Assembly (NCBI GenBank): GCA_937872925.1 | Contig: CALMUT010000259.1 | Span: 1-64,000 of the forward strand | Reading direction: 5' to 3' | Origin: an uncultured Myxococcales bacterium | GTDB lineage: Bacteria; Myxococcota_A; Polyangia; Polyangiales; Polyangiaceae | DNA length: 64,000 nucleotides | The notes under the pieces: generated by a model | What the model was told of the DNA's origin: nothing | The model's input: the letters and a program-made list of their open reading frames with translations, nothing else | The model's database searches: none | Position numbers and translations under genes: made by a program | In this document: positions 16,288 through 32,081 of the stretch, in pieces | How the letters are laid out: the number at the start of each line of letters is the position of its first letter | Position numbering within the stretch: position 1 is the stretch's first letter

Positions 16288-17382
16288 CTAGTTCTTACCG
16301 AGCACGTCGGTCGGAAGCAGTGCCTTGAGCGAGTCGGCACCGACCACGAGACGCACCTCTTGGATGCTTCCCGCGATTTCTTTGAAGCTCTCGAGCTCCT
16401 TCAGACGGAGCAGCATCGGCTGATCCGCCATCACACGTGCGGTGTTGGCGAGCGAACGCGTCGCGGCCGTTTCCTCACGACGGAGGATCACGTTCGCGGC
16501 CGCTTCTTTCTCGGCCTCGATCACGCGGTTGAGCAGGGTTTTCATCTCACCCGGCAGCACCACGTCCTTCACACCCACGCGCTCGATGCGCACACCGAAG
16601 GCGGCCGCCTTGGGCACCGCGTCCTCTTCGAGGAAGCGGGTCATGGCGTCGCGACCCTCCAGCAGCTCATCGAGGGAAACGCCCGAGACGAACTGACGCG
16701 CGGCCAGCTGTACCAGCAGGTACACGGCGTCCTTCACGTTGGCCACTCCCGTGACCACCCGCGCCGGATCCGCAACGGCGTACTCCACCGTCAGGCTCAG
16801 ACGCAGCGTGACTTTGTCGCGCGTCATCAGCTCCTGACCTACCAGTGCAACCTGCTCCGTGCGCATGTCGACGGCCTGCAGCGCCACTTCGGCGCCCGGG
16901 TACGACCACAGCGCGTAGCGACCCGGCGGCAGCACTTCCGTCAGCTCACCGCGCACGAACTTCAGGCCGCGCTGGTGCGCAATGACCGTAGTCACCACGT
17001 ACTCGCCCTTCGGCAGTACGCGCACCAGCTCGTCCGTCAGTTCCGGCATCGGACCGTCCACACGGAACACCGTGAGACGCACCGACGGGTCCACCGTCCA
17101 GAAACGGTGTACACCCGGACGCAGGAACGCCACCGGCACATCGTCTTTGAAGATCACGCCGCGTTCCAGCGCACCGAGGTGCGCTTCGGCGAACCAATCC
17201 GCCGGCATCAGCGCACGCACTTCCGGCGCTGCCTTGAACAGGATCTTGTCCGTGTCCCAGCGCAGCTCCATCAGGCGCGTGCCCCACACCGTGTGTCGAC
17301 CGGGACCAAGCGCACGCATGGGCAGTCCGTCTTTGAAGACCACCACTCGCTCACTGAGTCCTACGTTGAATACTTTGATCAT
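16288..17382 (-). CDS. SPFH/Band-7 (slipin-like) protein
   Basis: A 364-residue protein starting MIKVFNVG at 17382, after GGAGGCC. It opens with short beta-rich motifs (ERVVVFKDGLP, ERGVIFKDDVP), and the SPFH/Band-7 core occupies about residues 115-300 (VTLRLSLTVEYAVADPARVV, then EAEKEAAANVILRREETAATRS, the helical flotillin-like segment). No long transmembrane helix is evident, unlike classical slipins, so it may be peripheral. SPFH proteins oligomerise as membrane or complex scaffolds. From memory, comparative surveys of RNA-repair systems mention SPFH/Band-7 modules with tRNA-like RNAs. This gene is 3.5 kb from the first Y RNA here, so a link is only a possibility. Confidence 0.85.
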   Translation of the reverse strand: MIKVFNVGLSERVVVFKDGLPMRALGPGRHTVWGTRLMELRWDTDKILFKAAPEVRALMPADWFAEAHLGALERGVIFKDDVPVAFLRPGVHRFWTVDPSVRLTVFRVDGPMPELTDELVRVLPKGEYVVTTVIAHQRGLKFVRGELTEVLPPGRYALWSYPGAEVALQAVDMRTEQVALVGQELMTRDKVTLRLSLTVEYAVADPARVVTGVANVKDAVYLLVQLAARQFVSGVSLDELLEGRDAMTRFLEEDAVPKAAAFGVRIERVGVKDVVLPGEMKTLLNRVIEAEKEAAANVILRREETAATRSLANTARVMADQPMLLRLKELESFKEIAGSIQEVRLVVGADSLKALLPTDVLGKN

Positions 17383-17540
17383 GGCTCGTGGCCTCCAGCC
17401 GGAACCGCCGGCATGCGGGAAGACAAATGTCTTCGGTAAGTTTTCAGAGTTGGCGTTCTGATTTGATTTTTTGGTTACACGTCCCTGGCGCCCATCGACT
17501 GGCGCACTTTTGCGTGTCGCAAAAGCGCATCGCGGAGCAC

Positions 17541-17705
17541 GCGGTCGCGCCGATAAACACACGGCGGCTCGCGGTCGCTTCGCAGCAACACACGGTGGCT
17601 CGCGGTCGCGCCGCTTCGCAGAAACACACGGCGGCCCGCGGTCCCGCCGCTTCGCGGAAACGCATGGCGGCGCGCACGCGGTCGCGCCGCTTCGCAGAAA
17701 CACAC
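17541..17705. repeat. Imperfect tandem repeats upstream of SPFH gene
   Basis: Four to five imperfect units of roughly 33-39 bp, built around CGCTTCGCAGAAACACACGG and CGCGGTCGCGCC, stand end to end in the 430-bp gap between the SPFH gene and its upstream neighbour. Substitutions differ between copies. The array could contain promoter elements, but no clear -10/-35 pair was found. Confidence 0.7.
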
Positions 17706-20548: not shown

Positions 20549-20852
20549 TGAAGGGCAGGTTACCATCGAAATAGCGGCCGAGCGAGCAGGACCTCCCGAT
20601 GCACGTGGGGCGGCCGTCGAGCGACTGCTTTGCGAAGCACCCGCCGTCATGGCCACCGCGCAATACAACGCGGCCCAAACGCGGCGCGAAGCACGCGGGC
20701 AAGAGTGCGTCTCGCTCCAACGGTCGCCGCAACGATGGTTGGAGTCGTTCGCACAAATGCGCACGTGCTTCGGGCACGCGTCTGGTTTCGTTCGCGAGCA
20801 GCACGGACGCGGCGCGCCTGCGCGACTCGAACGAAGGGGCTGTCCCACTCGC
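20549..20852. other. Gap between nucleotidyltransferase pair and Y RNA
   Basis: About 300 bp with several overlapping open frames but no recognisable gene, tRNA or hairpin. It lies downstream of the terminal Y RNA candidate on the minus strand and could contain its 3' processing signals. Confidence 0.4.
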
Positions 20853-20997
20853 TCGACCTGGTGTGAACACTTTGGCTTAGTGTTGTCATGACGGATTAAT
20901 AGTCCGTTGCTCTACCCAACTGAGCTACACGTTCTTTCATGAGCGTGACGGGATTTGAACCCGCGACTGACGGGTCGAATGACTTCGACCAGGTCGA
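20853..20997 (-). ncRNA. Y RNA candidate A with permuted tRNA-like module
   Basis: A 145-nt RNA read on the minus strand. Its ends pair perfectly over 9 bp (TCGACCTGG with CCAGGTCGA). Next to this helix stand GGTCGAAG on the 5' strand and GTTCACA on the 3' strand, resembling the Ro-binding loop of Y RNAs (GGUCCGA / UUCACU). Inside is a circularly permuted tRNA: T arm GCGGG-TTCAAAT-CCCGT, acceptor strand CACGCTC, cap ATGAAA, acceptor strand GAACGTG (6 of 7 pairs), D arm GCTCAGTTGGGTAGAGC, then anticodon arm ACGGA-CTATTAA-TCCGT with ATT in the anticodon place. Not a normal tRNA gene because the halves are in reverse order. Less certain than the copies near the Ro60-like gene. Confidence 0.68.
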
Positions 20998-21085
20998 TAT
21001 CCTCGGAACGCACGAAACCGATACGCCCGACAGAACGCGTGAGCGCTGCATGGCGTAGGCACGTGTGCCGACTATTGGACACCGG

Positions 21086-21156
21086 AGCGACGAGCGGGGA
21101 TCGCACCCGCATCTCGAGAGTGGCGCTCTCGGATCCTACTGTTGGACGACCGTCGC
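21086..21156 (-). tRNA. tRNA-Gly(GCC)-like
   Basis: Full cloverleaf: acceptor GCGACGG/TCGTCGC, D arm GTCC-AACAGTA-GGAT, anticodon arm CGAGA-GCGCCAC-TCTCG (anticodon GCC, C at position 33), T arm GCGGG-TGCGATC-CCCGC, discriminator T as in bacterial tRNA-Gly. The D loop lacks the GG pair and the T loop has G instead of T at position 55. CCG, not CCA, follows. Confidence 0.85.
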
Positions 21157-21248
21157 AAAAACAAGAGGCGCGCGCTCCGCACTGGGGTGCTTTGGCACTC
21201 CGCGCGAACGCGCGCTCCGCACAAACAAGAGGTACCCGCTCCGAACCA

Positions 21249-21570
21249 AGCGCGCGGCTGCGCGCCCGCGGCGAGCGAACGCGAGTCGCGTCGGGGTGCT
21301 CGAGGGGCGGTGAGCCCCCGCGTGGAGGATCCCGGTGGGGGCGACCCCATCCGGAATCCAAGCGCGCGGCTGCGCGCCCGCGGCGAGCGAGTGCGAGTCG
21401 CGTCGGGGTGCTCGAGGGGCGGTGAGCCCCTCGTGGAGGATTCCGGTGGGGGCGACCCCATCCGGAATCCAAGCGCGCGGCTGCGCGCCCGCGGTGAGCG
21501 AACGCGAGTCGCGTCGGGGTGCACGAGGGGCGGTGAGCCCCCTCGTGGAGGATTCCGGTGGGGGCGGGCG
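21249..21570. repeat. 111-bp tandem repeat in tRNA spacer, three copies
   Basis: Copies begin at 21249, 21360 and 21471 (AAGCGCGCGGCTGCGCGCCC). Each holds CGAGCGAACGCGAG-like text, then a hairpin (GGGGCGGTGAGCCCC) and GTGGAGGATTCCGGTGGGGG. Two diverged relatives of the same unit, with a different but still complementary hairpin, occur beside Y RNAs at about 29935-30058 and 31060-31138. The long overlapping open frames here are by-products of the repeat. Confidence 0.92.
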
Positions 21571-21632
21571 GGCGGGATGAGAATAGTGGCTAGCAAACGC
21601 GGACGCGCCCGGGCGTGCACGCTCACCAGCAG

Positions 21633-21716
21633 CGGAAGCAGGAGGACTCGCACCCCACACCTTGCGGTGCGCACTCGTTAGCAACGAGGCTCGCTCCTAT
21701 GAGCGATTCTACTTCC
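21633..21716 (-). tRNA. tRNA-Ser(GCT)-like, long variable arm
   Basis: Acceptor GGAAGTA/TGCTTCC pairs fully, the anticodon loop TTGCTAA gives GCT, and a class-II variable arm CACC-GCAA-GGTG supports serine. The D arm is aberrant (TCGCTC-ATAG-GAGCGA, a 6-bp stem with a 4-nt loop) and the T loop reads TGCGAGT. No CCA is encoded. Confidence 0.8.
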
Positions 21717-21722
21717 AATTAG

Positions 21723-21795
21723 TACGGGGCCGGAGGATCGAACTCCGCTGTGCCGCTTTGTAAGAGCGGTGCCGTCACCAGACGACAAGCCCCGC
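21723..21795 (-). tRNA. tRNA-Val(TAC)
   Basis: Complete and canonical: acceptor GCGGGGC/GCCCCGT, D loop TCTGGTGA with GG, anticodon arm CCGCT-CTTACAA-AGCGG (anticodon TAC), T arm CGGAG-TTCGATC-CTCCG, discriminator A. No CCA encoded. Confidence 0.92.
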
Positions 21796-21808
21796 ATGGG
21801 CTTTCCGG

Positions 21809-21878
21809 TCCGCTCGCCAGGGATCGCACCTGGAGGCTCTGCATATCAGACAGAGCTGAGCCACTAGCTCGCGAGCGG
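21809..21878 (-). tRNA. tRNA-Ile(GAT)-like
   Basis: Acceptor CCGCTCG/CGAGCGG is a perfect 7-bp stem, D arm AGCT-AGTGGCTC-AGCT, anticodon arm TCTGT-CTGATAT-GCAGA (anticodon GAT), T arm CCAGG-TGCGATC-CCTGG, discriminator A. The T loop has G at position 55. Confidence 0.85.
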
Positions 21879-21919
21879 ATAGGTTTCGCGCAACTCGCGC
21901 AACAGCCGACCCGACAAAT

Positions 21920-21941
21920 TGGCCCACCCCGGGGTGGGCCA
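21920..21941. terminator. Strong perfect hairpin in tRNA array
   Basis: Perfect palindrome TGGCCCACCCC/GGGGTGGGCCA (11 bp), flanked by AAAT and GTTTGAAAA. It could terminate transcription in either direction or act as a processing hairpin between tRNA-Trp and tRNA-Ile. Confidence 0.6.
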
Positions 21942-21968
21942 GTTTGAAAAGTTCGCGCAGCGAACGCA

Positions 21969-22040
21969 TGGCGGGTTCGCGAGGAATCGCACCCCGTCCT
22001 CCGGACTTGGAAACCGGTTGGTCACTATGACCTCGAACCC
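21969..22040 (-). tRNA. tRNA-Trp(CCA), encoded GCCA end
   Basis: Acceptor GGGTTCG/CGAACCC perfect, discriminator G and encoded CCA as in bacterial tRNA-Trp. Anticodon arm CCGG(T)-TTCCAAG-(T)CCGG reads CCA, with a T-T mismatch closing the loop. The D arm is tiny (GGTCA-TAG-TGACC). T arm CGGGG-TGCGATT-CCTCG, again with G55. Confidence 0.82.
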
Positions 22041-22125
22041 AAACAACGTAATTGCCGGTGCTGCGTGACGTGCGGGGCATCCCTCGACTCCACGAGTAGA
22101 CAGCACCAGCCAGAGGCTCCAAACT

Positions 22126-22707
22126 TTGTCTGGCATGACGACCAGCGCGCCCCACCGCCGCTACACCATCGCGGAGTTCGTCGAACTCGAGGCGTACGCA
22201 AATGTGCGGCACGAGTTTCTCGACGGCCAAATCTACGCCATGGCGGGTGGGACTCCCGAGCACGGGACCTACGCAGCCAATGTGATCGCGTTGATCTCCG
22301 CGCAGCTGGGCGACAAGCCCTGCCGCGTGCAAACTTCGGACGTGCGGATCCGGGTGCAGGCCACGGGCCTGGACACCTATCCGGATGCAAGCGTGGTCTG
22401 CGGCAAGGCCGAGCGCGACTCGGACGATGAAAACGCGATCGTGAATCCAATCGTGTTGGTGGAGATCTTGAGCGAGAGCACCGCCGCCTATGATTTGGGC
22501 GACAAGCTCGTGCACTACAAGCAGATCCCCGCGTTGCGCGAAGTCCTCTTCGTCGACCCAAGCGACCAGTCCGTGTCCGTGATGCGCCGGGACACGGAGG
22601 GCAGCTGGACCACGCATCGGGCAGCTCGCACGGAGTCGATCGAACTGCAGTCGATCGAGTGTCGCTTGGCGGTAGACGCCGTATTTCGTGATCCACTGGC
22701 GGACTGA
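22126..22707 (+). CDS. Uma2-family (DUF820) PD-(D/E)XK-fold protein
   Basis: A 193-residue protein of the Uma2/DUF820 family. RYTIAEFVELEAYANVRHEFLDGQIYAM (given as RYTIAEFVELEA and VRHEFLDGQIYAM) opens the fold, TYPDASVVCG near residue 88 carries the family Asp, and NPIVLVEILSESTAAYDLGDK near 106 carries the E-x-L motif. The fold is nuclease-like, but the cellular function of the family, common in multicellular bacteria, is unknown. It is the only clear gene on the plus strand inside the tRNA array, lying between tRNA-Trp and tRNA-Ala, and so is probably an insertion. ATGs at 22126 and 22135 are both possible. Confidence 0.88.
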   Translation: MSGMTTSAPHRRYTIAEFVELEAYANVRHEFLDGQIYAMAGGTPEHGTYAANVIALISAQLGDKPCRVQTSDVRIRVQATGLDTYPDASVVCGKAERDSDDENAIVNPIVLVEILSESTAAYDLGDKLVHYKQIPALREVLFVDPSDQSVSVMRRDTEGSWTTHRAARTESIELQSIECRLAVDAVFRDPLAD

Positions 22708-22742
22708 GTGCGTAGGGATCCGCCAGCGGCTGAAAGCAGCAG

Positions 22743-22813
22743 TGGAGCGGCCGGGAGTTGCACCCGGATCTCTGGTTTGCGACACCAGTGTCTTGCTATT
22801 GGACGACCGTCCC
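22743..22813 (-). tRNA. tRNA-Ala(CGC)-like
   Basis: Anticodon arm CTGGT-GTCGCAA-ACCAG (anticodon CGC), T arm CCGGG-TGCAACT-CCCGG with G55, acceptor GGGACGG/CCGCTCC with one A-C mismatch, discriminator A. D loop AATAGCAA lacks GG. Confidence 0.8.
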
Positions 22814-22867
22814 GAACGCCGCGACGCGCGCGGCTGAAAAAGAACGCCGCGACGCGCGGCTCGTAGT

Positions 22868-22943
22868 TGGGGTGACCGACGGGATTTGAACCCATACCTG
22901 CAGGGCCACAACCTGCCGTGCGACCCATTCACACCGCGGCCAC
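22868..22943 (-). tRNA. tRNA-His(GTG), encoded CCA
   Basis: Acceptor GTGGCCG/CGGTCAC, D loop GAATGGGTC, anticodon arm GCAGG-TTGTGGC-CCTGC (GTG), T arm ATGGG-TTCAAAT-CCCGT, discriminator C followed by CCA. C73 fits histidine; the position -1 base in the gene is T rather than G. Confidence 0.92.
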
Positions 22944-22985
22944 AAATGAAGATCGTCGCCGCCCGTTTCGGCGACACCAATCCAG

Positions 22986-23058
22986 TGCGTCGGGTTGGGA
23001 TCGAACCAACGCCTCCGGTTTTTCAAACCAGCGCTTCCACCAGGTTAGCTTCCGACGC
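22986..23058 (-). tRNA. tRNA-Phe(GAA)
   Basis: Acceptor GCGTCGG/CCGACGC perfect, anticodon arm CTGGT-TTGAAAA-ACCGG (GAA), T arm GTTGG-TTCGATC-CCAAC, discriminator A. D loop contains GGTGG. CTG follows instead of CCA. Confidence 0.92.
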
Positions 23059-23129
23059 AAGAGTGCACCCCAACGCGCTGGGGCGCTTCGGTGCCTCGCG
23101 CGAACGCGACGAACCACAAGAATAAACAG

Positions 23130-23197
23130 TCGCTACGCGCGGATTCGCACCGCGTCCCGAAGCCTTATGAGAGCTTGGTCCACCTTGGGTCGTAGCG
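23130..23197 (-). tRNA. tRNA-Met(CAT)-like with reduced D arm
   Basis: Acceptor CGCTACG/CGTAGCG perfect, anticodon arm AAGCT-CTCATAA-GGCTT (CAT), T arm CGCGG-TGCGAAT-CCGCG (G55), discriminator A. Only 14 nt separate the acceptor from the anticodon stem, so the D arm is much reduced. CAT could also be a tRNA-Ile2 type. Confidence 0.8.
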
Positions 23198-23226
23198 AAG
23201 TCCGCGCCCAAAAGCCGGGCGCGGTC

Positions 23227-23300
23227 TGGCGTCCCCACGGGGAATCGCACCCCGATTGCGAGATTGAAAATCTCGAGTCCTGCTCTTAGACGATGGGGAC
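23227..23300 (-). tRNA. tRNA-Glu(TTC), encoded GCCA
   Basis: Acceptor GTCCCCA/TGGGGAC, D arm GTCT-AAGAGCA-GGAC, anticodon arm CGAGA-TTTTCAA-TCTCG (TTC), T arm CGGGG-TGCGATT-CCCCG, discriminator G and encoded CCA. Stems are perfect, but D loop lacks GG and T loop has G55. Confidence 0.9.
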
Positions 23301-23364
23301 AAACGTGAAGCGGCGCTGGGGTACTGCGGCGCTTCGCGCACCCGCGCCGAACCACAAGAATGAG

Positions 23365-23449
23365 TACTCGAGGTGAGAGTCGAACTCACAAGCTCTCTAT
23401 GGAGCGACTGGTTCTGAGCCAGCTGCGTTTTCCGTTTCGCCACTCGAGT
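23365..23449 (-). tRNA. tRNA-Leu(CAG)
   Basis: Acceptor ACTCGAG/CTCGAGT, D arm GCG-AAACGGAAAA-CGC, anticodon loop CTCAGAA (CAG), class-II variable arm GCTC...GAGC, T arm GTGAG-TTCGACT-CTCAC, discriminator A. Canonical; no CCA. Confidence 0.92.
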
Positions 23450-23474
23450 GTGTGGGTCGGGTCAACCCGAACCG

Positions 23475-23550
23475 TGGAACGGGAATCAGGACTCGAACCT
23501 GAACCTCAAGGCTTCAAAGGCCTGCGCGCTGCCGATTGCGCCATTCCCGC
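23475..23550 (-). tRNA. tRNA-Gln(TTG), encoded CCA
   Basis: Acceptor GCGGGAA/TTCCCGT, D arm GCGC-AATCGGCA-GCGC, anticodon loop CTTTGAA (TTG), T arm TCAGG-TTCGAGT-CCTGA, discriminator T then CCA. The discriminator is unusual for glutamine (normally G). Confidence 0.9.
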
Positions 23551-23583
23551 AGACGCGACTGGTGCCTGCCGGTCACGTATTTG

Positions 23584-23655
23584 CTGCACGGGTAAGATTC
23601 GAACTTACGGTCCCGCGGTTAACAGCCGCGTGCCTTTCCACTTGGCTACCGTGCA
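23584..23655 (-). tRNA. tRNA-Asn(GTT)
   Basis: Acceptor TGCACGG/CCGTGCA perfect, D arm GCC-AAGTGGAAA-GGC, anticodon arm CGCGG-CTGTTAA-CCGCG (GTT), T arm GTAAG-TTCGAAT-CTTAC, discriminator G. Canonical; no CCA. Confidence 0.93.
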
Positions 23656-23687
23656 ATGCGGCGGACGCACTTCCAGCGTCTGCCCGG

Positions 23688-23770
23688 AGGAAGGTGGAGG
23701 TCACGCTCCCCAGACCTTGCGGTCCGATCTGTTTTCGAAACAGTCCTGGTCCTCGACCAGTTCACCTTCC
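23688..23770 (-). tRNA. tRNA-Ser(CGA)-like
   Basis: Acceptor GGAAGGT/ACCTTCC, anticodon loop TTCGAAA (CGA), class-II variable arm GACC-GCAA-GGTC. The D arm is an odd 6-bp stem (CTGGTC-GAG-GACCAG) and the T loop AGCGTGA departs strongly from TTCGAAT. First tRNA after the protein operon. Confidence 0.8.
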
Positions 23771-25123: not shown

Positions 25124-25702
25124 TCAGGCGCCGGATTCTTGCACGCCGTTCAAACTGATCATGTAGTCGCGCTTTTCGGAGGTCTTTGCGAAATCTTGAA
25201 GCGCGCGCGCAGCCGTTGCTGCCACCAGGGCGATCAGCGGCAAATGCTCGCCACCCTCGCAGGTCGCCTGCCCTTCTTCGTCTTCGGCGTCGGCGACGAA
25301 ACCTTCGTCCCAACGCACCAAGCCAAAAGTGCCGTCCGCGGAGATCGCCGCGTGCAGCAGGGCCTTGTTATTCTCGCGCGCATACGTACTGAGCAGCACG
25401 CGACTCTTTTGATTGTCGAAGGCGTCGATGACGAGATCAGCCTTGGCGAGCAGGGTGTCGACGTTGTCTTCCGACACACGCACGCCAAAGGCCTCACTCT
25501 TGATGCCGTGGAAGTTCAAGAGCTGAAGCTTCAGGGCCTCGGCTTTGTTCTTCCCCACGGACTGCTTCACGTAGGCCTGCGACAGCAGGTTCTTTGACTC
25601 GACGCGGTCGAAGTCCACGAAGCAGAGCGTGGCGTCTAAGTTGCGACACAGAAGTGCCGCAAGCGAACCGAGGGCGCCCACACCGCAGAAGACAATGCGC
25701 AT
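25124..25702 (-). CDS. Minimal E1/ThiF-type adenylating enzyme
   Basis: A 192-residue E1-like protein, predicted to adenylate the C-terminus of a ubiquitin-like partner. The nucleotide-binding loop GVGALGS is at residues 7-13, followed by FVDFDRVESKNLLSQ (acidic and Arg residues that contact ATP) and VGKNKAEALK. VIDAFDNQKSR matches the E1 D-x-D-N-x-x-x-R pattern. A Cys in TCEGGEHLPL near residue 145 sits where the thioester Cys of E1/MoeB proteins lies. It is shorter than ThiF/MoeB (about 240-250) and has no fused domain. It is the last gene of the five-gene set with a Ubl (8-bp gap), JAMM and Ro60-like protein. Confidence 0.85.
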   Translation of the reverse strand: MRIVFCGVGALGSLAALLCRNLDATLCFVDFDRVESKNLLSQAYVKQSVGKNKAEALKLQLLNFHGIKSEAFGVRVSEDNVDTLLAKADLVIDAFDNQKSRVLLSTYARENNKALLHAAISADGTFGLVRWDEGFVADAEDEEGQATCEGGEHLPLIALVAATAARALQDFAKTSEKRDYMISLNGVQESGA

Positions 25703-25709
25703 GGGCGCC

Positions 25710-25985
25710 TCAGTTCTCCACGCAGCGGCTCAGGCCGTAGCGCGCTGCGCCGAAGGGGACCTTCGGACGCAGGTAGATGCGACCCGTGCCGTGGCCGCCG
25801 AAGCGGTCGACCATGTAGTAGTCGAAGGCGTTGTCCGGCAGGTTTGCGATGTGCAAACCACGCAGGCCGCCGGTACGGATGACTTCGATCGCAATACGGC
25901 GCACGTCCGCATCCGACACGTAGTCGTCCAGTGGACGCGGGTAGTCCGCGCTGTAGCCGTTGTAAGTGATGTTCAAGATTGCCAT
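25710..25985 (-). CDS. Predicted ubiquitin-like (beta-grasp) protein
   Basis: A 91-residue protein. The ATG at 25985 has an excellent site (AAAGGAGG, 9 nt upstream). Secondary-structure reading is beta-beta-alpha-beta-beta: AILNITYNGYSADYP, then DADVRRIAIEVIRTG, then FDYYMVDRF and GRIYLRPKVPFG, which fits a beta-grasp and resembles Prok_Ub/PRTRC-C-type proteins (YNG...DVRR). The C-terminus is LSRCVEN rather than Gly-Gly, so activation by E1 would need trimming after VPFG or would use a different tail. Its place between JAMM and E1 is the main support for the Ubl call. Confidence 0.65.
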   Translation of the reverse strand: MAILNITYNGYSADYPRPLDDYVSDADVRRIAIEVIRTGGLRGLHIANLPDNAFDYYMVDRFGGHGTGRIYLRPKVPFGAARYGLSRCVEN

Positions 25986-26043
25986 GGAACGGACCCTCCT
26001 TTCGGGCCTTAGTTGGGTGCGAAAAACTCGGACCAGACTTTGT

Positions 26044-26433
26044 TTATTTAGATTGTTTGGATGTGGCGGTTGGTTCGTCATCGGCGAACGGCATGCCTGA
26101 CGCCAGACGCAGCAAGCTGGACCACCAAGGTTCGTCCTCGACCGTCGCCACGACGTCGCCACGTTTCGTGATCATGCCCGTGGGCGCGAGCACCGAGAAT
26201 CGCAACGTCTTGCCTAGCGCCGTTTCTAGCGCCTGCATCGTCGTCTCGTCTTCTCTAGAGAAAGCCAAGGGGCCATTGGGATGGCTGTGACTCAACTCTT
26301 CAAGTTCGTCGCGATGCTCCCAGATCATTTGCCAGCGCTTGCGAGAGTCCGGCAACTGGCTTGGGCTTTGCGACGCGTCGCTGAAGAGCACCGCGCCGCC
26401 CTTGCCGATCAGGAAGAACACTTCACGTTTCAT
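26044..26433 (-). CDS. JAMM/JAB-domain metallopeptidase
   Basis: A 129-residue JAB/MPN protein. The zinc motif HSHPNGPLAFSREDE (residues about 51-65) has His-x-His and, at the expected spacing, Ser-x-x-Asp; the N-terminal Glu may be Glu4 (MKREVFF). Such enzymes cleave isopeptide or Ubl-precursor bonds. The ATG overlaps the stop of the upstream gene (ATGA), so the two are translationally coupled. The Ubl gene follows 58 bp downstream. The C-terminus ends in a short charged tail (DDEPTATSKQSK). The set JAMM-Ubl-E1 recalls the PRTRC-type arrangement. Confidence 0.88.
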   Translation of the reverse strand: MKREVFFLIGKGGAVLFSDASQSPSQLPDSRKRWQMIWEHRDELEELSHSHPNGPLAFSREDETTMQALETALGKTLRFSVLAPTGMITKRGDVVATVEDEPWWSSLLRLASGMPFADDEPTATSKQSK

Positions 26434-27386
26434 GCCCGCCTCGTGATGTTGAGCTGAGCCGTATCAAAACCTTCTCGGATCACCGAAGGTAGGCTCTCCA
26501 AAGTGACTTCACGGTCAGAACCGCTGAGACAGATGCCAGCGTCGATGACCTGTAGCGAGACTTCATCGACGACGCTGATGAAGCGTTCGCCCATGAAGCG
26601 ATAGGTCACTTCTAGCATGCCTCTGCCCAGGGACCGAGACCCGACCAAGTCGGCACCCGCGGCATCCAGCGCTCGTGTTGCGCGATCGATGGGGGTCCCA
26701 GCATCGGCTGCGCTCCGGGGGCGCTGCCGTCCGCTGCGGTGCTGGACCACTCGCCCCTCGGCGGCGTCCCAAGCCTGCACCCGCACGCGCTCCAGACGCC
26801 GGCGTTCTTCCAAATCTAAGAGCAACGACGTCGCAACCTCGCGGCCACCGCTGGCCAATTCCAAGATAGCGCCGGCGATCTCCCGGGGAGATACGGCGAT
26901 GTCGAGAGCGCGCCCAACTCCCGTGACCAATGCAAACGCAAATGCCGCGCGAAGGGATGCCGCCACCCCTTTGATCTCGTCGATGCCGCGCACGTCTTCG
27001 AGCGCTTGGCGCACCGTGTCTTCGGCCTCGGATTCGAACTCGAGAGCGTCAAACACCAGATCGCCGGAATGCCAGCGTCGGGCAATGACGGGAGAAAGCA
27101 GCGCGGGCTCTTCTGCAGGCACCAGCTCGACTCGTGCGAGCTGACGCCCACCCGAGAAGAGCCAACCATGAGCGAAGTGCCCACGCACGGCTTCGAGGCC
27201 CTCCAAATCGGTCGCGTCCGCGTTGTCCACAATTGTGGCCACGCGGCCCTTGAAGCTGAAGCGATACCAGCCCGGCGGTTGCTGCACGTCTACGGCGTAG
27301 CGTCGGCTCGCATCATCCACGCGGGTGCCACCAAAGTATGGCAGCACCCGCGCTTCGTCTGTTTTTAGGAACTTACGAAAGTCCAC
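26430..27386 (-). CDS. Conserved protein of the Ro60-like/Ubl operon, unknown function
   Basis: A 318-residue protein without signal peptide or membrane segment. No catalytic domain was recognised. The middle (residues about 110-200) is helical and Ala/Leu/Glu-rich; the C-terminal 90 residues look like a compact alpha/beta domain: YRFMGERFISVVDE, then LQVIDAGICLSGSDREVTLE and SLPSVIREGF. One Cys lies in DAGICLSG; an E2-like role is conceivable from position in the operon, but the usual E2 active-site pattern is not seen. It overlaps the Ro60-like gene by 14 bp and the JAMM gene by 4 bp, so it is firmly part of this operon. Confidence 0.75.
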   Translation of the reverse strand: MDFRKFLKTDEARVLPYFGGTRVDDASRRYAVDVQQPPGWYRFSFKGRVATIVDNADATDLEGLEAVRGHFAHGWLFSGGRQLARVELVPAEEPALLSPVIARRWHSGDLVFDALEFESEAEDTVRQALEDVRGIDEIKGVAASLRAAFAFALVTGVGRALDIAVSPREIAGAILELASGGREVATSLLLDLEERRRLERVRVQAWDAAEGRVVQHRSGRQRPRSAADAGTPIDRATRALDAAGADLVGSRSLGRGMLEVTYRFMGERFISVVDEVSLQVIDAGICLSGSDREVTLESLPSVIREGFDTAQLNITRRA

Positions 27387-29148
27387 GAGGCAACTCCAAC
27401 AGAGGAGTGGACATGACGCGCTCCACGAGTCCGAATTGCTTCTTCGGCGCGTTTCGCGGTGCTTCGAGCAACGCCTTCAGCACACGCGGCACTTGATACG
27501 GATCGTCGAACTGTTCGATGGATACTTCACTGAACGGAATGTTCAGCGCAGTCGCGGCTTCCCGCACTGTGTTTCCACGCAGTACGGATACGTTGAGTAA
27601 CAGCGCCATGGCACTCGGATCGTAGCCAGCTCGACGGAACCCTTCGGCAAAATTGCTGCCGCTCTCTCCCGCTTCATCGCCGACAACGATGACGACTAGC
27701 TTCGCATCCAAAGAAATCTCAACACCAGCACGTCGCAGCGCATGCACGCCGGACGAATGCAGCGTTCCACCTTCAGCGCGGATGCCGCTGAGCATGTGCT
27801 GGATCGCCGCGCGGCTTGGAGCCTTGGGGCGGAGCACCGTGCCCATGGTGTCAAAGCTGGCGATGTGCACCTTGTCCGCTGGGAAGCCGGCCAAGATGCG
27901 GGACAGCGCTTCTTTGGATTGTTCGATGGCGCCCTGCATGCTTCCGGATTTGTCGATCAGGAACATGACGTGCACGTCCACCTCTCGAGTCGCTTCGGTG
28001 ACTGCTTTTTGAGCAGCGACATCGGCGGCCTCTTCGAGCTTTTCGCGCACGCCCTGGTCGCGCACGTTCTTGGCGATGTTGAGGGCGCGTTGATCCGTGG
28101 ATGCGGCGATTGCGGTCTCCCAACGTTCGCGGACTTCCGGCGCTGCAAGCAGCCCCAGTTCTTCGAGAGTCGGCGTCATGATGCGCAGATCGCGATCCGA
28201 GAGCGTGGGCAGCACGGCCACCATGATGGCAGGCGTGAGGCCCATGTCTTTCGGCAATCGGCCCACCACGTCTTTGAACTTCAGACGCTGGGACTCGATG
28301 GCCTCGCAGATTTCCACTTCGCTCAAACCGTCGAACCGTTCGCGCTTCTGCAAGTTGAGGCCTTCCAGCCCCACGCTGCGGTGACCCGCAGCGGCTTGTT
28401 TCTGCTTCCAGCCCAAGATCTCGAAGAACCCCTGACTGCTCGGCTTGTAGCCAGCTTTGCGCGCGATCTTCTTGATGGTTTCCTTGTAGCCGGCGCTCAC
28501 GAGACCTTCCAACATCGGTTGGTTTTCTTCGCGCACCCGCAGCCACTTTTGCGCCGCGGCTTTCCAACGGCCCAGGGGCGGCTTTTTTGCGGCGGGATCG
28601 CCAAACCCCGCCAAGCGGTTGAGCTCGACGATTTCCGGCGTTTCCAAGAGCTGCGCCACACGCAATACGCTTTTGGGCGTCATCATGCGCTGCGACTTTT
28701 TTTCGTAGGTCAGCAGCATGGCTTCGCCAATTCGGCGAAAGTCGTCATCGTAGAAGCCAACGCTGCCGTCGTCGTCGTGTACGGGCTGACCGGAGCGTTG
28801 CTGCACCAGCATCAGCGCCGCAGCGGCGACTTTCAGGTCACGCCAATCCGTCTCTTTCAGCGCGTAGCTGGCGAAGTGCGCCGCAAGCTCCACGTTCAGC
28901 TCGTAGATCTCGAGCAGCTTCGAGTAGAGGGTCGCCGCCGCAGGTACGAACAGACCCGGGCGCACCTGCACTCCTTGAGTGCCCGCCGCGCGAGCGCGAC
29001 CGCGCACACCACGGCGGGGATGCCACACGCCGCCAATGTCAACGCCGGGGCGGTTGTGCCATAGGTGCGCGGACGAAGAGAGCACCAAGTCCAGGAGCTT
29101 CTCCGCGGGACCCATCTGTGATTCCGGAAGGGGCTGTGGGTTCGTCAT
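27373..29148 (-). CDS. Ro60-like protein: TROVE-type helical domain plus vWA domain
   Basis: A 591-residue protein. The start at 29148 has GGAGG upstream; extension to 29301 would read through a structured RNA. Residues about 90-345 are HEAT-like helices with TROVE-style features (SYALKETDWRDLKVAAAALM, LGRWKAAAQKWLRVREENQP, GLTPAIMVAVLPTL followed by a Leu-rich segment). Residues about 390-560 form a vWA domain with a full MIDAS: DKSGSM, the Thr in EGGTLHSSG, and Asp in VVGDEAGES. This is the order found in Ro60/Rsr, which binds Y RNAs and misfolded RNA. Its divergence from Deinococcus Rsr is large, so the TROVE call rests partly on the adjacent Y RNAs. First gene of the Ubl operon. Confidence 0.8.
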   Translation of the reverse strand: MTNPQPLPESQMGPAEKLLDLVLSSSAHLWHNRPGVDIGGVWHPRRGVRGRARAAGTQGVQVRPGLFVPAAATLYSKLLEIYELNVELAAHFASYALKETDWRDLKVAAAALMLVQQRSGQPVHDDDGSVGFYDDDFRRIGEAMLLTYEKKSQRMMTPKSVLRVAQLLETPEIVELNRLAGFGDPAAKKPPLGRWKAAAQKWLRVREENQPMLEGLVSAGYKETIKKIARKAGYKPSSQGFFEILGWKQKQAAAGHRSVGLEGLNLQKRERFDGLSEVEICEAIESQRLKFKDVVGRLPKDMGLTPAIMVAVLPTLSDRDLRIMTPTLEELGLLAAPEVRERWETAIAASTDQRALNIAKNVRDQGVREKLEEAADVAAQKAVTEATREVDVHVMFLIDKSGSMQGAIEQSKEALSRILAGFPADKVHIASFDTMGTVLRPKAPSRAAIQHMLSGIRAEGGTLHSSGVHALRRAGVEISLDAKLVVIVVGDEAGESGSNFAEGFRRAGYDPSAMALLLNVSVLRGNTVREAATALNIPFSEVSIEQFDDPYQVPRVLKALLEAPRNAPKKQFGLVERVMSTPLLELPRGLS

Positions 29149-29219
29149 GGAACGCCTCCAGTGTAAGGGTGAAAGATGCGCGAGCGTCAGGCTTTGTGCG
29201 CGCGCGTGGGGGAGACAAT

Positions 29220-29368
29220 TTTTCCGTGTCCGAGTGAAGAAGCCATTAACTTGTGTGTCAGTTCCATAGACTGATGCCTTTACCGTTTGGCTACAAATCA
29301 TTGCTGATTCGGACGGATTCGAACCGCCATTGTGTGCGTGTAGGGCCTCGTCGGCCGGACACGGAAAA
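29220..29368 (-). ncRNA. Y RNA 1, directly upstream of the Ro60-like gene
   Basis: A 149-nt RNA ending 71 bp before the Ro60-like start codon. Ends pair over 13 bp (TTTTCCGTGTCCG with CGGACACGGAAAA). Then GGCCGACGAGGCC on the 5' side faces GGCTTCTTCACT on the 3' side; GAGGCC/GGCTTC form a second helix, leaving the loop GCCGAC / TTCACT that resembles the Ro site of Y RNAs (GGUCCGA, CUUCACUUGAC). The body is a permuted tRNA: T arm GGCGG-TTCGAAT-CCGTC, acceptor CGAATCA, short cap, acceptor TGATTTG, D arm GCCAAACGGTAAAGGC, anticodon arm TCAGT-CTATGGA-ACTGA (ATG). Confidence 0.85.
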
Positions 29369-29381
29369 GATGTAGACGCGA

Positions 29382-29562: not shown

Positions 29563-29720
29563 TTCGGGCCCGAGGCGCGCGGGGGATGAAGGCGCGGCTC
29601 GAGGGCCCAGGCCCCGGGGGTCGTCGGTTGCGGCGAGGCAAGCGACCCGCGGCAGGTAGCAGTTGCCTACCGGTGCCTTGTCTGGTCGTGGTGCGACAAC
29701 AAAACGCAGTCGCAGAGTGT

Positions 29721-29870
29721 TCTTCCGTGCCCGAGTGATGAAGCCATTAACTTTCGTCAGTGTTAAAAACTGATGCCTTACCGTTAGGCTACAAATCGCT
29801 TTGGGTGATTTGAGCGGATTCGAACCGCCACTATTGTGCGTGTAGGGCCTCGTCGGCCGGACACGGAAAA
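29721..29870 (-). ncRNA. Y RNA 2
   Basis: A 150-nt RNA. The closing helix TTTTCCGTGTCCG/CGGGCACGGAAGA keeps pairing through two G-U wobbles relative to copy 1. GAGGCC/GGCTTC and the GGCCGA / ATCACT loop are retained. Permuted tRNA body: T arm GGCGG-TTCGAAT-CCGCT, acceptor CAAATCA then CCCA, cap, acceptor CGATTTG, D arm GCCTAACGGTAAGGC, anticodon arm TCAGT-TTTTAAC-ACTGA, whose anticodon place reads TTA (complement of the UAA stop). CACAATACAAAC directly precedes it, as for copy 3. Confidence 0.83.
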
Positions 29871-30058
29871 GTTTGTATTGTGCGGCGCTCGCGGTGCTCA
29901 GAACGCCAAAGCACCCCAGTGCGGCTTCGTGCGGCCACGCACGCGAGTGCGAGCGAATGCGAGCCCGCGTCGAGCGGTTCCCCGAAGGGGACAGCGAGGC
30001 GCGTTGGGGGTCTGGGGGTTCACCCCCAGGGAGGACTACGGCGGGGGTGCGCGGGCGG
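29871..30058. repeat. Duplicated Y RNA upstream segment (copy 1)
   Basis: About 160-190 bp directly upstream of Y RNA 2 that recurs upstream of Y RNA 3 (30981-31138). It includes GTTTGTATTGTGCGGCGCTC next to the RNA, the dispersed CCAAAGCACCCCAGTGCGG element, and a hairpin CTGGGGGTTCACCCCCAG followed by GGAGGACTACGG. It likely carries the Y RNA promoter (CAATAC as a -10-like hexamer on the minus strand, not certain). Confidence 0.85.
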
Positions 30059-30108: not shown

Positions 30109-30639
30109 TCAAGCGACACCGGTGCGCGGCATCGCCGCGCAGAAGTCGTGCCATTCCGGCGGCGCGTTCTTCACGTCGAAGAGCACCGGCGGCAGCGGCA
30201 GACTCGTCGGGCGCTGCGGACGCTGACGCGGACGCATGCCGACTTCTTCCAGAGTCTTGTTCGCCTTCTTCGCGTTGCAGGCGTAGCAGGCGGTGACGAT
30301 GTTTTCCCAGACCGTGAGACCACCGCGAGAGCGCGGGATCACGTGGTCATAGGTCAGCTGACTCACCGGCAGCTTCAGATGGCAGTACGCGCAGCTGAAA
30401 CCGTCACGCAGGTACACGTTGATGCGCGAGAACCGCACGCCACGTTTGTGTACCTTCACGTTCTTCTTCAGGCGAATCACGGCAGGCAGCGCCATGCTGA
30501 CCGACGGCGAGTGTACTTCTTCGTCGTAGTTCACCACCGCGTCGGCCTTGCCCAAGTAGAGCAGCGTGATCGCGTCCTGCCACGACACGACGCAACGCGG
30601 CGCGTACCATGGCGTCAAAACAAGCGTGCGCGCATTCAT
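30109..30639 (-). CDS. HNH endonuclease
   Basis: A 176-residue HNH nuclease. The ATG at 30639 has a very strong site (AAGGAGGTGACCG). The zinc/HNH core spans residues about 80-130: CAYCHLKL, then LTYDHVIPRSRGG with the catalytic DH, and WENIVTACYACNAKK with the second Cys pair. The N-terminal block NARTLVLTPWYAPRCVVSWQ is shared by a widespread family of short stand-alone HNH proteins. It lies between tRNA-Tyr and Y RNA 2, in the same direction. HNH proteins inside tRNA arrays are common in phages, where they act as homing enzymes; here the family is usually chromosomal, so a housekeeping or conflict role is equally possible. Confidence 0.9.
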   Translation of the reverse strand: MNARTLVLTPWYAPRCVVSWQDAITLLYLGKADAVVNYDEEVHSPSVSMALPAVIRLKKNVKVHKRGVRFSRINVYLRDGFSCAYCHLKLPVSQLTYDHVIPRSRGGLTVWENIVTACYACNAKKANKTLEEVGMRPRQRPQRPTSLPLPPVLFDVKNAPPEWHDFCAAMPRTGVA

Positions 30640-30718
30640 CGGTCACCTCCTTCGGCAGTTTGTTGCGTGCTCCAGTTGAGTTGCGCCGCCCGCGACACCA
30701 TTGCCGCGAAGCAGCCGG

Positions 30719-30798
30719 TGGGATGATCAGGAATCGAACCTGCCTAGCCATTCAGGCGCCCGGTTTACGGCCGGACCTGCGTCCCAGCGCCTCATCCC
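30719..30798 (-). tRNA. tRNA-Tyr(GTA)
   Basis: Acceptor GGGATGA/TCATCCC perfect, anticodon region CCGG-CCGTAAA-CCGG (GTA, C at 33), class-II variable arm GCC-TGAAT-GGC, T arm CAGG-TTCGATT-CCTG, discriminator A then CCG. D loop has GGG. Confidence 0.88.
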
Positions 30799-30872
30799 AA
30801 AATCTTCTCCCCAGCCCACCGCTCCGCGCGGGGGTGCTTTGGCATTCCGAGCTCGCGCTCGAAGAGAAGGAT

Positions 30873-30980
30873 TTTCCCGCGTCCGAGTGAGAAAGCCATT
30901 TCCTTCATCGGTTGGTAACGATTGCTCTCCATGAGCCAAGGTGGACTCGAACCACAAATTGGTCGGCCGGACGCGGGAAA
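30873..30980 (-). ncRNA. Y RNA 3, short form
   Basis: A 108-nt relative. The closing helix is TTTCCCGCGTCCG with CGGACGCGGGAAA: compared with copy 1, GTGTCC/GGACAC has become GCGTCC/GGACGC, a compensatory change. GGCCGACC and TCTCACT preserve the Ro-like loop. The body has a T arm (TGTGG-TTCGAGT-CCACC) and acceptor strand TTGGCTC, then a cap and GAGAGCAA, which pairs imperfectly, followed directly by an anticodon-like hairpin (ATCG-TTACCAAC-CGAT). The D arm is missing. Confidence 0.78.
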
Positions 30981-31138
30981 GTTTGTATTGTGCGGCGCTC
31001 GCGGTGCTCAGAACACCAAAGCACCCCAGTGCGGCTTCGTGCGGCCCACGCACTGCCCCGCGAGCGAATGCGAGCCCGCGCTGAGCGAGCGAAGCGGCGT
31101 TGGGGGTCTGGGGGTTTACCCCCAGGGAGGACTACGGC
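30981..31138. repeat. Duplicated Y RNA upstream segment (copy 2)
   Basis: Near-identical to 29871-30058 for its first 75 bp and again around the hairpin (CTGGGGGTTTACCCCCAG, then GGAGGACTACGGCGG). It stops at the homopolymer tract at 31139. Confidence 0.85.
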
Positions 31139-31176
31139 GGGGGGGGGGGGGGGGGGGGGGGGGGCGCCCCCCCCCC
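31139..31176. repeat. Homopolymer tract: 26 G, CG, 10 C
   Basis: A run of 26 G, then CG, then 10 C. The equivalent place in the other copy of the segment reads CGGGGGTGCGCGGGCGGG, so this tract is not conserved. It may be a sequencing or assembly artefact and breaks the neighbouring reading frame. Confidence 0.9.
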
Positions 31177-31177
31177 T

Positions 31178-31696
31178 GGGGGCGAACCAAAACAACCCGC
31201 TTCGTAGGCCGATGCCTGCCTTCCGGCAGGACAGAGAGAAAGCCGCGCGCCGGCGTTTCCGCCGGGCGCGGTTGACCTTTTGCAGCACGCCATCTTCGTC
31301 CACGGTGAAGCGCCCCCAGCGGCTATTCCTATCTGGGTGATGGTCTTCACCGACGTACTCGATGCTATCGAGCAAATGATCGAAGAGAATGTGCCGACCC
31401 GCGGTCGTGCGGTCGTCGAAACGCCGTCGCAGCAAAGAGTACGACTCGTTCCAGGGAATGCCCGCGCGTGACGAAAGAAAGCGGTACGCCGGTGCCAGGT
31501 TGTCGCGAAAGTATTTCGGGACTGGCTGGCGCTTGGGCAAGACAGTCGCGTCCCAAGTGTCGGGGTCCCGGCAGAGCGCCCGCAGGTGCTCACGCACTCG
31601 GACCCGCTCGACCTGGGAGCTGAAGCGCCTGAACCAAGCATTGTGGAAGTACCGCCCGCCTTCAATCACGGTACGGGCCAGGTTTTTGGTGGACAA
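31178..31696 (-). CDS. Hypothetical basic protein, 3' end uncertain
   Basis: About 173 residues up to the homopolymer tract. The TTG at 31696 is preceded by AAAGGA at a normal distance; the frame extends 30 codons upstream only by reading through tRNA-Asp. The protein is rich in Arg, His and aromatic residues (EGGRYFHNAWFRRF, RDNLAPAYRFLSSRAGIPW, DRTTAGRHILFDHLLDSIEY) with a basic end (NRARRKRRR), which suggests nucleic-acid binding. I do not recognise the family. It sits between tRNA-Asp and Y RNA 3, in the same direction. The natural stop is probably lost in the poly-G region; the open frame that continues to 30905 through it is not credible. Confidence 0.55.
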
Positions 31697-31731
31697 AAGT
31701 GTCCTTTCTAACGGAAGCAGCAGGCTTCCGG

Positions 31732-31803
31732 CGCCCGCGGAGGGAATTGAACCCTCCTCGCCGGATCGACAATCCGGTCGCCTCACCAGATGCGTACGCG
31801 GGC
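31732..31803 (-). tRNA. tRNA-Asp(GTC)
   Basis: Acceptor GCCCGCG/CGCGGGC perfect, D loop with TGGTG, anticodon arm CCGGA-TTGTCGA-TCCGG (GTC), T arm GAGGG-TTCAATT-CCCTC, discriminator G. Canonical; CCG follows. Confidence 0.93.
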
Positions 31804-32010
31804 AAGCGTGGGTGACCGTGGCAGGTCACCCATGACCTGTTCACAGTGAACAGGTCGTAAAAAGAGACTGCGCGCGCTCTTTGCGGGCGCAGCCCCTTCT
31901 CGTCGCATAAGTTGTCAAAGTGCCATGACGCAAAGTGCGCCGAGCCCGGCTGGGCTTGCTCACGCGTCCGAGGACGAGCAAGCGGGTGTCTCGCGATCCG
32001 AAGACCGCAG

Positions 32011-32081
32011 TGGGGCATCAGGGGATCGAACCCTGATCAACCGGTTAAAAGCCGGTAGCTCTACCGTTGAGCTAATGCCCC
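32011..32081 (-). tRNA. tRNA-Lys(TTT)
   Basis: Acceptor GGGGCAT/ATGCCCC perfect, D arm GCTC-AACGGTA-GAGC, anticodon arm ACCGG-CTTTTAA-CCGGT (TTT), T arm CAGGG-TTCGATC-CCCTG, discriminator A. Canonical; CTG follows. First tRNA of the island in the direction of transcription. Confidence 0.94.

Follow-up and report, generated by a model that had tools for sequence, protein, structure and literature searches.

In a dense array of transfer RNA (tRNA) genes from an uncultured Myxococcales bacterium, positions 18 and 55 of the tRNA elbow change together, while G19, C56, U54, and A58 stay. The array lies on contig CALMUT010000259.1 (GCA_937872925.1), of which positions 1 to 64,000 were analyzed; this whole 64,000-nucleotide stretch is referred to below as the window. 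We call genes with A18 and G55 swapped, and genes with the usual G18 and U55, the latter being pseudouridine (Psi) in the modified tRNA, canonical. We propose that the swapped genes encode auxiliary tRNAs of decoding type, belonging to a phage-type array, in which an A18-G55 elbow pair compensates for the loss of G18-U55(Psi). Judged from the sequences, this reading is moderately probable. The G18-Psi55 contact is among the most conserved in biology, and a recurrent, matched alternative to it amounts to a natural test of what the contact and its modification are for.

What is the state of each gene in the array? Re-reading the minus strand from 20.5 to 32.5 kb, we found that seven of its tRNA genes, all lying within 21086-23300, have a T loop starting TGC (U54-G55-C56). 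These genes (Gly, Ser-GCT, Ile, Trp, Ala, Met, and Glu) are precisely those named in an earlier, sequence-only reading of this DNA. Ser-CGA is an eighth G55 gene; its T loop, AGCGTGA, places A-G-C at positions 54-56. The sequence-only reading had also held that the D-loop GG was missing in several of these genes and the elbow contact lost. G18 is indeed gone, but G19 is retained, and the change in the swapped D loops is from G18 to A18 (AACAGTA, AATAGCA, AAGAGCA, CTAGTG, ATAGTG, ATAGG, and CGAGG). In Met-CAT (D loop AAGGTGG) nucleotide 18 is ambiguous, so that A18 is found in seven of the eight G55 genes. C56, U54, and A58 are kept as well, except in Ser-CGA (23688-23770, minus strand), where A54 and T58 are exchanged in addition to G55. 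The elbow contact appears to be exchanged and not lost, with G19-C56 and U54-A58 remaining. The GG, described earlier as mostly kept in the array genes whose T loop starts TTC (Val, His, Phe, Leu, Gln, Asn, Tyr, Asp, and Lys), is retained in these genes, and nearly all of the nine tRNAs in a second array of this genome, on contig C116 (L033), retain it too. Across the arrays of the window genome the 18/55 states separate fully once Met is set aside (Fisher p = 2e-6, hand-assigned). The stems of the G55 genes, earlier called perfect, are intact with small blemishes: Ala has one acceptor mismatch, and the T stems of both Ser genes pair at four of five positions. The tiny or over-paired D arms noted in Ser, Trp, and Met are present, but they are a separate trait, also seen in canonical U55 array tRNAs such as those for Ser in Myxococcus phage Mx1.

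The covariance-model check suggested with the sequence-only reading gave a divided answer. By the Rfam tRNA model (RF00005), Glu (52.5 bits), Ala (45.8 bits), and Gly (41.4 bits) still score as tRNAs, Trp reaches 26.5 bits, and Ile, Met, and both Ser genes fall under the gathering score; the genome's other tRNAs mostly score ~52-76 bits. The array genes have the paired acceptor, D, anticodon, and T stems of the RF00005 cloverleaf, with scores ranging from >60 bits to sub-threshold, and the elbow motif of that model (G18G19 plus TPsiC) is absent from the eight G55 window genes. tRNA finders tuned to TTC and GG miss or under-score such A18/G55 genes. G55 occurs in none of the ~40 housekeeping tRNA genes read from the window genome, and the genome encodes TruB, the pseudouridine-55 synthase. 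Thus, G55 is not a genome-wide trait.

Beyond the window, tRNAs were located with a scanner that relies on stems and imposes no constraint on T-loop letters; it replaced a MAFFT alignment in which the D loops were misaligned. Nucleotide 18 was assigned by a conservative rule preferring GG. A18 is present in 46 of the 51 G55 tRNAs from Polyangiales arrays in related genomes and C in one, the other four being ambiguous loops (e.g., GAAGAGGCGA) that the rule scores as G; among 167 U55 tRNAs, 162 carry G18 and one carries A18 (Fisher 9e-41 versus the G55 set). A search pattern with G55 fixed and position 18 free matched 15 times among 183 genomes of the order, in 13 of them and always with A18, and a second pattern of this kind gave A18 in three of three matches in 359 genomes of the phylum Myxococcota. 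With the second pattern, 117 of 123 among the matches listed from IMG/VR have A18, four have T, and two have G (near-identical copies retained). The other tRNAs on the listed viral contigs, which were not selected by pattern and were freed of duplicates, behave likewise: at G55 we count 102 A18, 3 G, and 2 C, and at U55 224 G18, 2 A, and 1 T (Fisher 3e-79, although this and the other p-values for 18/55 overstate certainty, as the sequences share descent and are not independent). Covariation seen both in related arrays and in unrelated phages strongly supports the earlier claim of a coordinated, two-sided change as opposed to random decay.

Near-minimal pairs, otherwise 80-89% identical and differing at positions 18 and 55, exist for Arg-CCT, Ala-CGC, Pro-GGG, Lys-CTT, and Arg-TCT. 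For example, Arg-CCT of L379/L380 is 86-89% identical to that of L381 and has the opposite 18/55 state. Such pairs demonstrate that tRNAs have switched repeatedly between the two states. Residue 18 stacks between nucleotides 57 and 58 in the elbow (PMC4810234), and nucleotide 57 shifts with G55: A57 is found in 52% of G55 versus 23% of U55 phage tRNAs (p 3e-9) and in 27% versus 7%, respectively, of Polyangiales tRNAs (p 1e-4). This correlated shift accords with elbow anatomy.

The swap can take in the whole tRNA set of a phage. Five uncultured viral contigs carry swapped tRNAs only (25/25 in L322, 17/17 in L255, 13/13 in L342, 10/10 in L324, and 9/9 in L276), and 12 of 13 tRNAs are swapped in L262; a lower score cut-off adds a canonical Met to L342 and a canonical Met and Leu to L262. 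Other viral contigs hold one swapped tRNA amid many canonical ones. The swapped sets of whole phages span many isoacceptors, which suggests a decoding role. Among cultured phages, the search for swapped tRNAs turned up canonical ones only.

How might the exchanged elbow work? We propose that A18 would still stack between nucleotides 57 and 58 and would pair with G55, so that the tRNA would keep its L-shaped fold and its exposed face at G19-C56. TruB and the Gm18 methylation would lose their targets; since position 55 is G, no pseudouridine-55 is expected in the swapped tRNAs. The purpose of the swap we infer. As a hypothesis, the swapped tRNAs could serve as a back-up for translation that does not depend on modification of the elbow, could escape RNases directed at the TPsiC/GG elbow, or both, and damaged or misfolded tRNA might be dealt with by the Ro60-like protein and Y-like RNAs close by. 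Among the toxins of contact-dependent inhibition systems are tRNases that cleave the T loop. A bolder and more tentative proposal, which we hold to be possible but short of probable, is that selection maintains A18-G55 as a second elbow code, whereby complete sets in some phages and phage-derived arrays survive a host, competitor, or phage-takeover tRNase that reads G18-Psi55, or need no elbow modification. The swap suggests that phage tRNAs could be distinct from those of their hosts in a feature outside the anticodon loop.

Several observations weigh against a compensated and useful elbow. Swapped tRNAs are absent from the scanned stretches of phages T5, Mx1, XacN1, RpAliso, and RcXuper, and likewise from the scanned stretch of a Miltoncostaea plasmid tRNA array. 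Neither a nuclease that discriminates between the 18/55 states nor any gene common to the swapped phages was identified. The Myxococcota arrays are mixed, with about a quarter of their tRNAs swapped, which a simple rule of nuclease evasion does not predict, and Asp, Asn, and Tyr are never swapped in the Polyangiales arrays, which likewise argues against simple evasion. Finally, a few D loops remain ambiguous under the rule used to assign nucleotide 18.

The mixed arrays and the switching of state among homologous tRNAs would be natural outcomes of neutral compensatory drift, in which weakly selected, poorly modified array or phage tRNAs acquire an A18-G55 pair roughly as good as unmodified G18-U55 and keep it without benefit, and the confinement of G55 to accessory tRNAs points the same way. 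Drift is nonetheless rather unlikely, since the state of whole phages is close to all-or-none (25/25, 17/17, 13/13, and 10/10) and in view of the lack of swapped tRNAs in the equally mobile phage and plasmid arrays named above. Decaying pseudogenes, for which the low covariance-model scores of Ile, Trp, Met, and Ser might speak, are scarcely credible: the acceptor and T stems pair almost perfectly, and the paired 18/55 change recurs across genera and phages, a covariation that contradicts decay.

In the staphylococcal cell-wall tRNA-Gly, which stands outside normal translation, the GG is lost, and GUGC is found in the T loop of sequenced tRNA-Gly. By analogy, the swap could take the array tRNAs out of translation and make of them aminoacyl donors or Ro60 ligands or decoys, an idea favored by the closeness of Ro60 and Y RNAs to the arrays and by the existence in S. 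aureus of a dedicated tRNA-Gly of which translation makes poor use (PMC4810233, PMC9976931). We consider such a non-decoding role improbable. The staphylococcal case, which is marked by lost EF-Tu determinants, concerns the glycine isotype alone, whereas here the swap spans most isotypes and full isoacceptor sets, and G19-C56 and U54-A58 are retained, in contrast to a wholesale disappearance of elbow contacts. We still prefer to read the genes as auxiliary decoding tRNAs whose elbow is compensated.

How does the array compare with known systems? The dense and redundant clustering of tRNA genes, together with an HNH endonuclease, recalls the tRNA array units of mycobacteria (PMC5966550, Morgado and Vicente 2018; PMC12803027). 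In the arrays of mycobacteria, their plasmids, and their phages, the HNH endonuclease is the commonest protein gene, and an anti-defense role has been proposed (PMC5966550; PMC12803027). Such a unit has at least 20 dense tRNA genes; the window cluster has ~17 (~14 within 2.7 kb and three further along the window), and related arrays (e.g., G116 and G120) exceed 20. Redundancy and coverage of most amino acids are found when the window cluster is combined with the nine-tRNA cluster on contig C116 (L033:7517-8400, plus strand): the latter is the sole supplier of Thr, Arg, Cys, and Pro, which are absent from the window cluster, and together they cover all amino acids. In contrast to the mycobacterial units, for which elbow changes are not described, the window locus includes a Ro60-like protein and Y-like RNAs. 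Similar in layout is Myxococcus phage Mx1 (OR576727), in which ~31 tRNAs accompany TROVE/Ro60, HNH, RNA ligase, and peptidyl-tRNA hydrolase genes; however, all of its scanned tRNAs are G18/U55. The bacterial Ro60 (Rsr)/YrlA system with its rtcBA operon (PMC7790460) shares with the window a Ro60-type protein and a tRNA-mimicking Y RNA near tRNA biology, but RtcB of the window genome is encoded on other contigs (C56/C225), and the window protein lies beside JAB- and ThiF-like genes.

Natural tRNAs that lack the standard G18/Psi55 include tRNA-Pyl and type II mitochondrial tRNAs (PMC7609411), in which the D/T-loop motif is wholly absent, whereas here one pair is exchanged. G55 and A18 go unmentioned in reviews that treat the elbow, modification of the T loop, and non-canonical tRNAs (PMC4810234, PMC7609411, PMC7566577), G55 is unmentioned in PMC7912444, and D/T loops are undiscussed in work on phage tRNAs that evade tRNase defense (PMC10264068, PMC11555353). 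In the accessible literature, mostly without subscription papers, we found no description of an A18-G55 elbow; one may nevertheless have been published. Suppressor tRNAs whose D/T loops are altered have been studied structurally.

Table 1. Features of the tRNA array and its surroundings in the window.
Feature	Position	Strand	Remarks
tRNA-Gly(GCC)	21086..21156	-	A18/G55; D loop AACAGTA, T loop TGCGATC
tRNA-Ser(GCT)	21633..21716	-	A18/G55; over-paired D arm TCGCTC-ATAG-GAGCGA, T loop TGCGAGT
tRNA-Val(TAC)	21722..21795	-	canonical G18/U55
tRNA-Ile(GAT)	about 21807..21879	-	A18/G55; 5-nucleotide D loop TAGTG
tRNA-Trp(CCA)	21972..22040	-	A18/G55; D arm GGTCA-TAG-TGACC
tRNA-Ala(CGC)	22743..22813	-	A18/G55; AATAGCA / TGCAACT
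tRNA-His(GTG)	22868..22943	-	canonical
tRNA-Phe(GAA)	22985..23058	-	canonical
tRNA-Met(CAT)	23130..23198	-	G55; odd D arm, nucleotide 18 ambiguous
tRNA-Glu(TTC)	about 23227..23300	-	A18/G55; AAGAGCA / TGCGATT
tRNA-Leu(CAG)	23364..23449	-	canonical
tRNA-Gln(TTG)	23475..23550	-	canonical
tRNA-Asn(GTT)	23583..23655	-	canonical
tRNA-Ser(CGA)	23688..23770	-	A18/G55 plus 54A/58T; T loop AGCGTGA
tRNA-Tyr(GTA)	30717..30798	-	canonical
tRNA-Asp(GTC)	31730..31803	-	canonical
tRNA-Lys(TTT)	32010..32081	-	canonical
Band_7/SPFH protein	16288..17703	-	Band_7 genes also within G120 and G124 arrays
YrlA-like RNA	20846..21002	-	permuted T arm, acceptor-like hairpin, D arm, anticodon-like arm; closed by CGACCTGGT/ACCAGGTCG; fold z -2.5
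Uma2-type putative endonuclease	22126..22707	+	inside array; PF05685, 1e-33
ThiF/E1-like protein	25124..25702	-	
Weak Prok-JAB domain protein	26044..26433	-	2.5e-4, under curated cut-off
Protein of unknown family	26430..27386	-	in Ro60-like operon
Ro60/TROVE-like protein, 591 residues	27373..29148	-	helical N part and VWA with DKSGS; fold match 9kop Trove domain, 1yvp Ro, prob 1.00
Y-RNA-like hairpin	29215..29373	-	permuted tRNA-like core; terminal stem CUUUUCCGUGUCCG/CGGACACGGAAAAA; z -4.2
Y-RNA-like hairpin, second copy	29716..29874	-	z -4.8
HNH_5 endonuclease	30109..30639	-	array-associated; similar genes in other arrays
Y-RNA-like hairpin, third, shorter	30868..30984	-	z -3.75

The window cluster looks like a phage-type module, to judge by its gene content, because Ro60, HNH, and Y-like RNAs recur in other arrays and phage Mx1 has a similar cassette. 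Its tRNA genes are interleaved with the HNH_5 and Uma2 genes, and a like HNH_5 gene is present in every large array checked for one. A Band_7 gene also lies inside the tRNA cluster of Xanthomonas phage XacN1 (L393:1116-2024, plus strand). Between tandem repeats at 31139-31178 of the window, a long run of G is followed by C, possibly an assembly artefact.

The predicted fold of the 591-residue protein (mean predicted local distance difference test, pLDDT, 74, a moderate quality) has TROVE/Ro60 as its best match, and the Pfam TROVE and vWA_Ro60 profiles do not reach this protein. With a TROVE plus VWA fold like that of Ro60/Rsr in the model, it is probably a divergent Ro60 relative. Its gene is followed in the operon (25124-29148, minus strand) by those of the unknown-family protein, the weak JAB domain, and the ThiF/E1-like protein. 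Relatives of the protein (60-82% identity) are widespread in Myxococcota, mostly without adjoining tRNAs, and relatives also turn up in records from Planctomycetota and Actinomycetota. Arrays flank the 60-82% relatives, or more distant ones (~40%), in G083 (L078), G113 (L094), Hyalangium (L103), and a Kofleriaceae metagenome-assembled genome (L163); the Hyalangium array (L103:16161-19281, plus strand) has >20 tRNAs beside the Ro60-like gene, all of them U55. A recognizable Ro60 gene, with a Pfam TROVE match, lies inside six other Polyangiales arrays (G049, G093, G116, G120, G121, and G179).

The Rfam YrlA model (RF02553, cut-off 69) gives 40.5 bits at 20846..21002 and 23.8 bits for a second window match; matches inside the G179 array score 70.6, 67.9, and 56.5 bits, the first exceeding the cut-off. 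The Y-RNA-like elements of the window, three of which are hairpins with long terminal stems, have a circularly permuted core order (T arm, acceptor-like hairpin, D arm, anticodon-like arm) and the anticodon-like loops CTATTAA, CTATGGA, and TTTTAAC. Finally, a lone tRNA-like gene (TCTGGAATAGCTCA...TTCCAAAAC) with varying anticodons lies upstream of the Ro60-like gene in the array-less loci L139, L143, L145, L147, L150, and L153.

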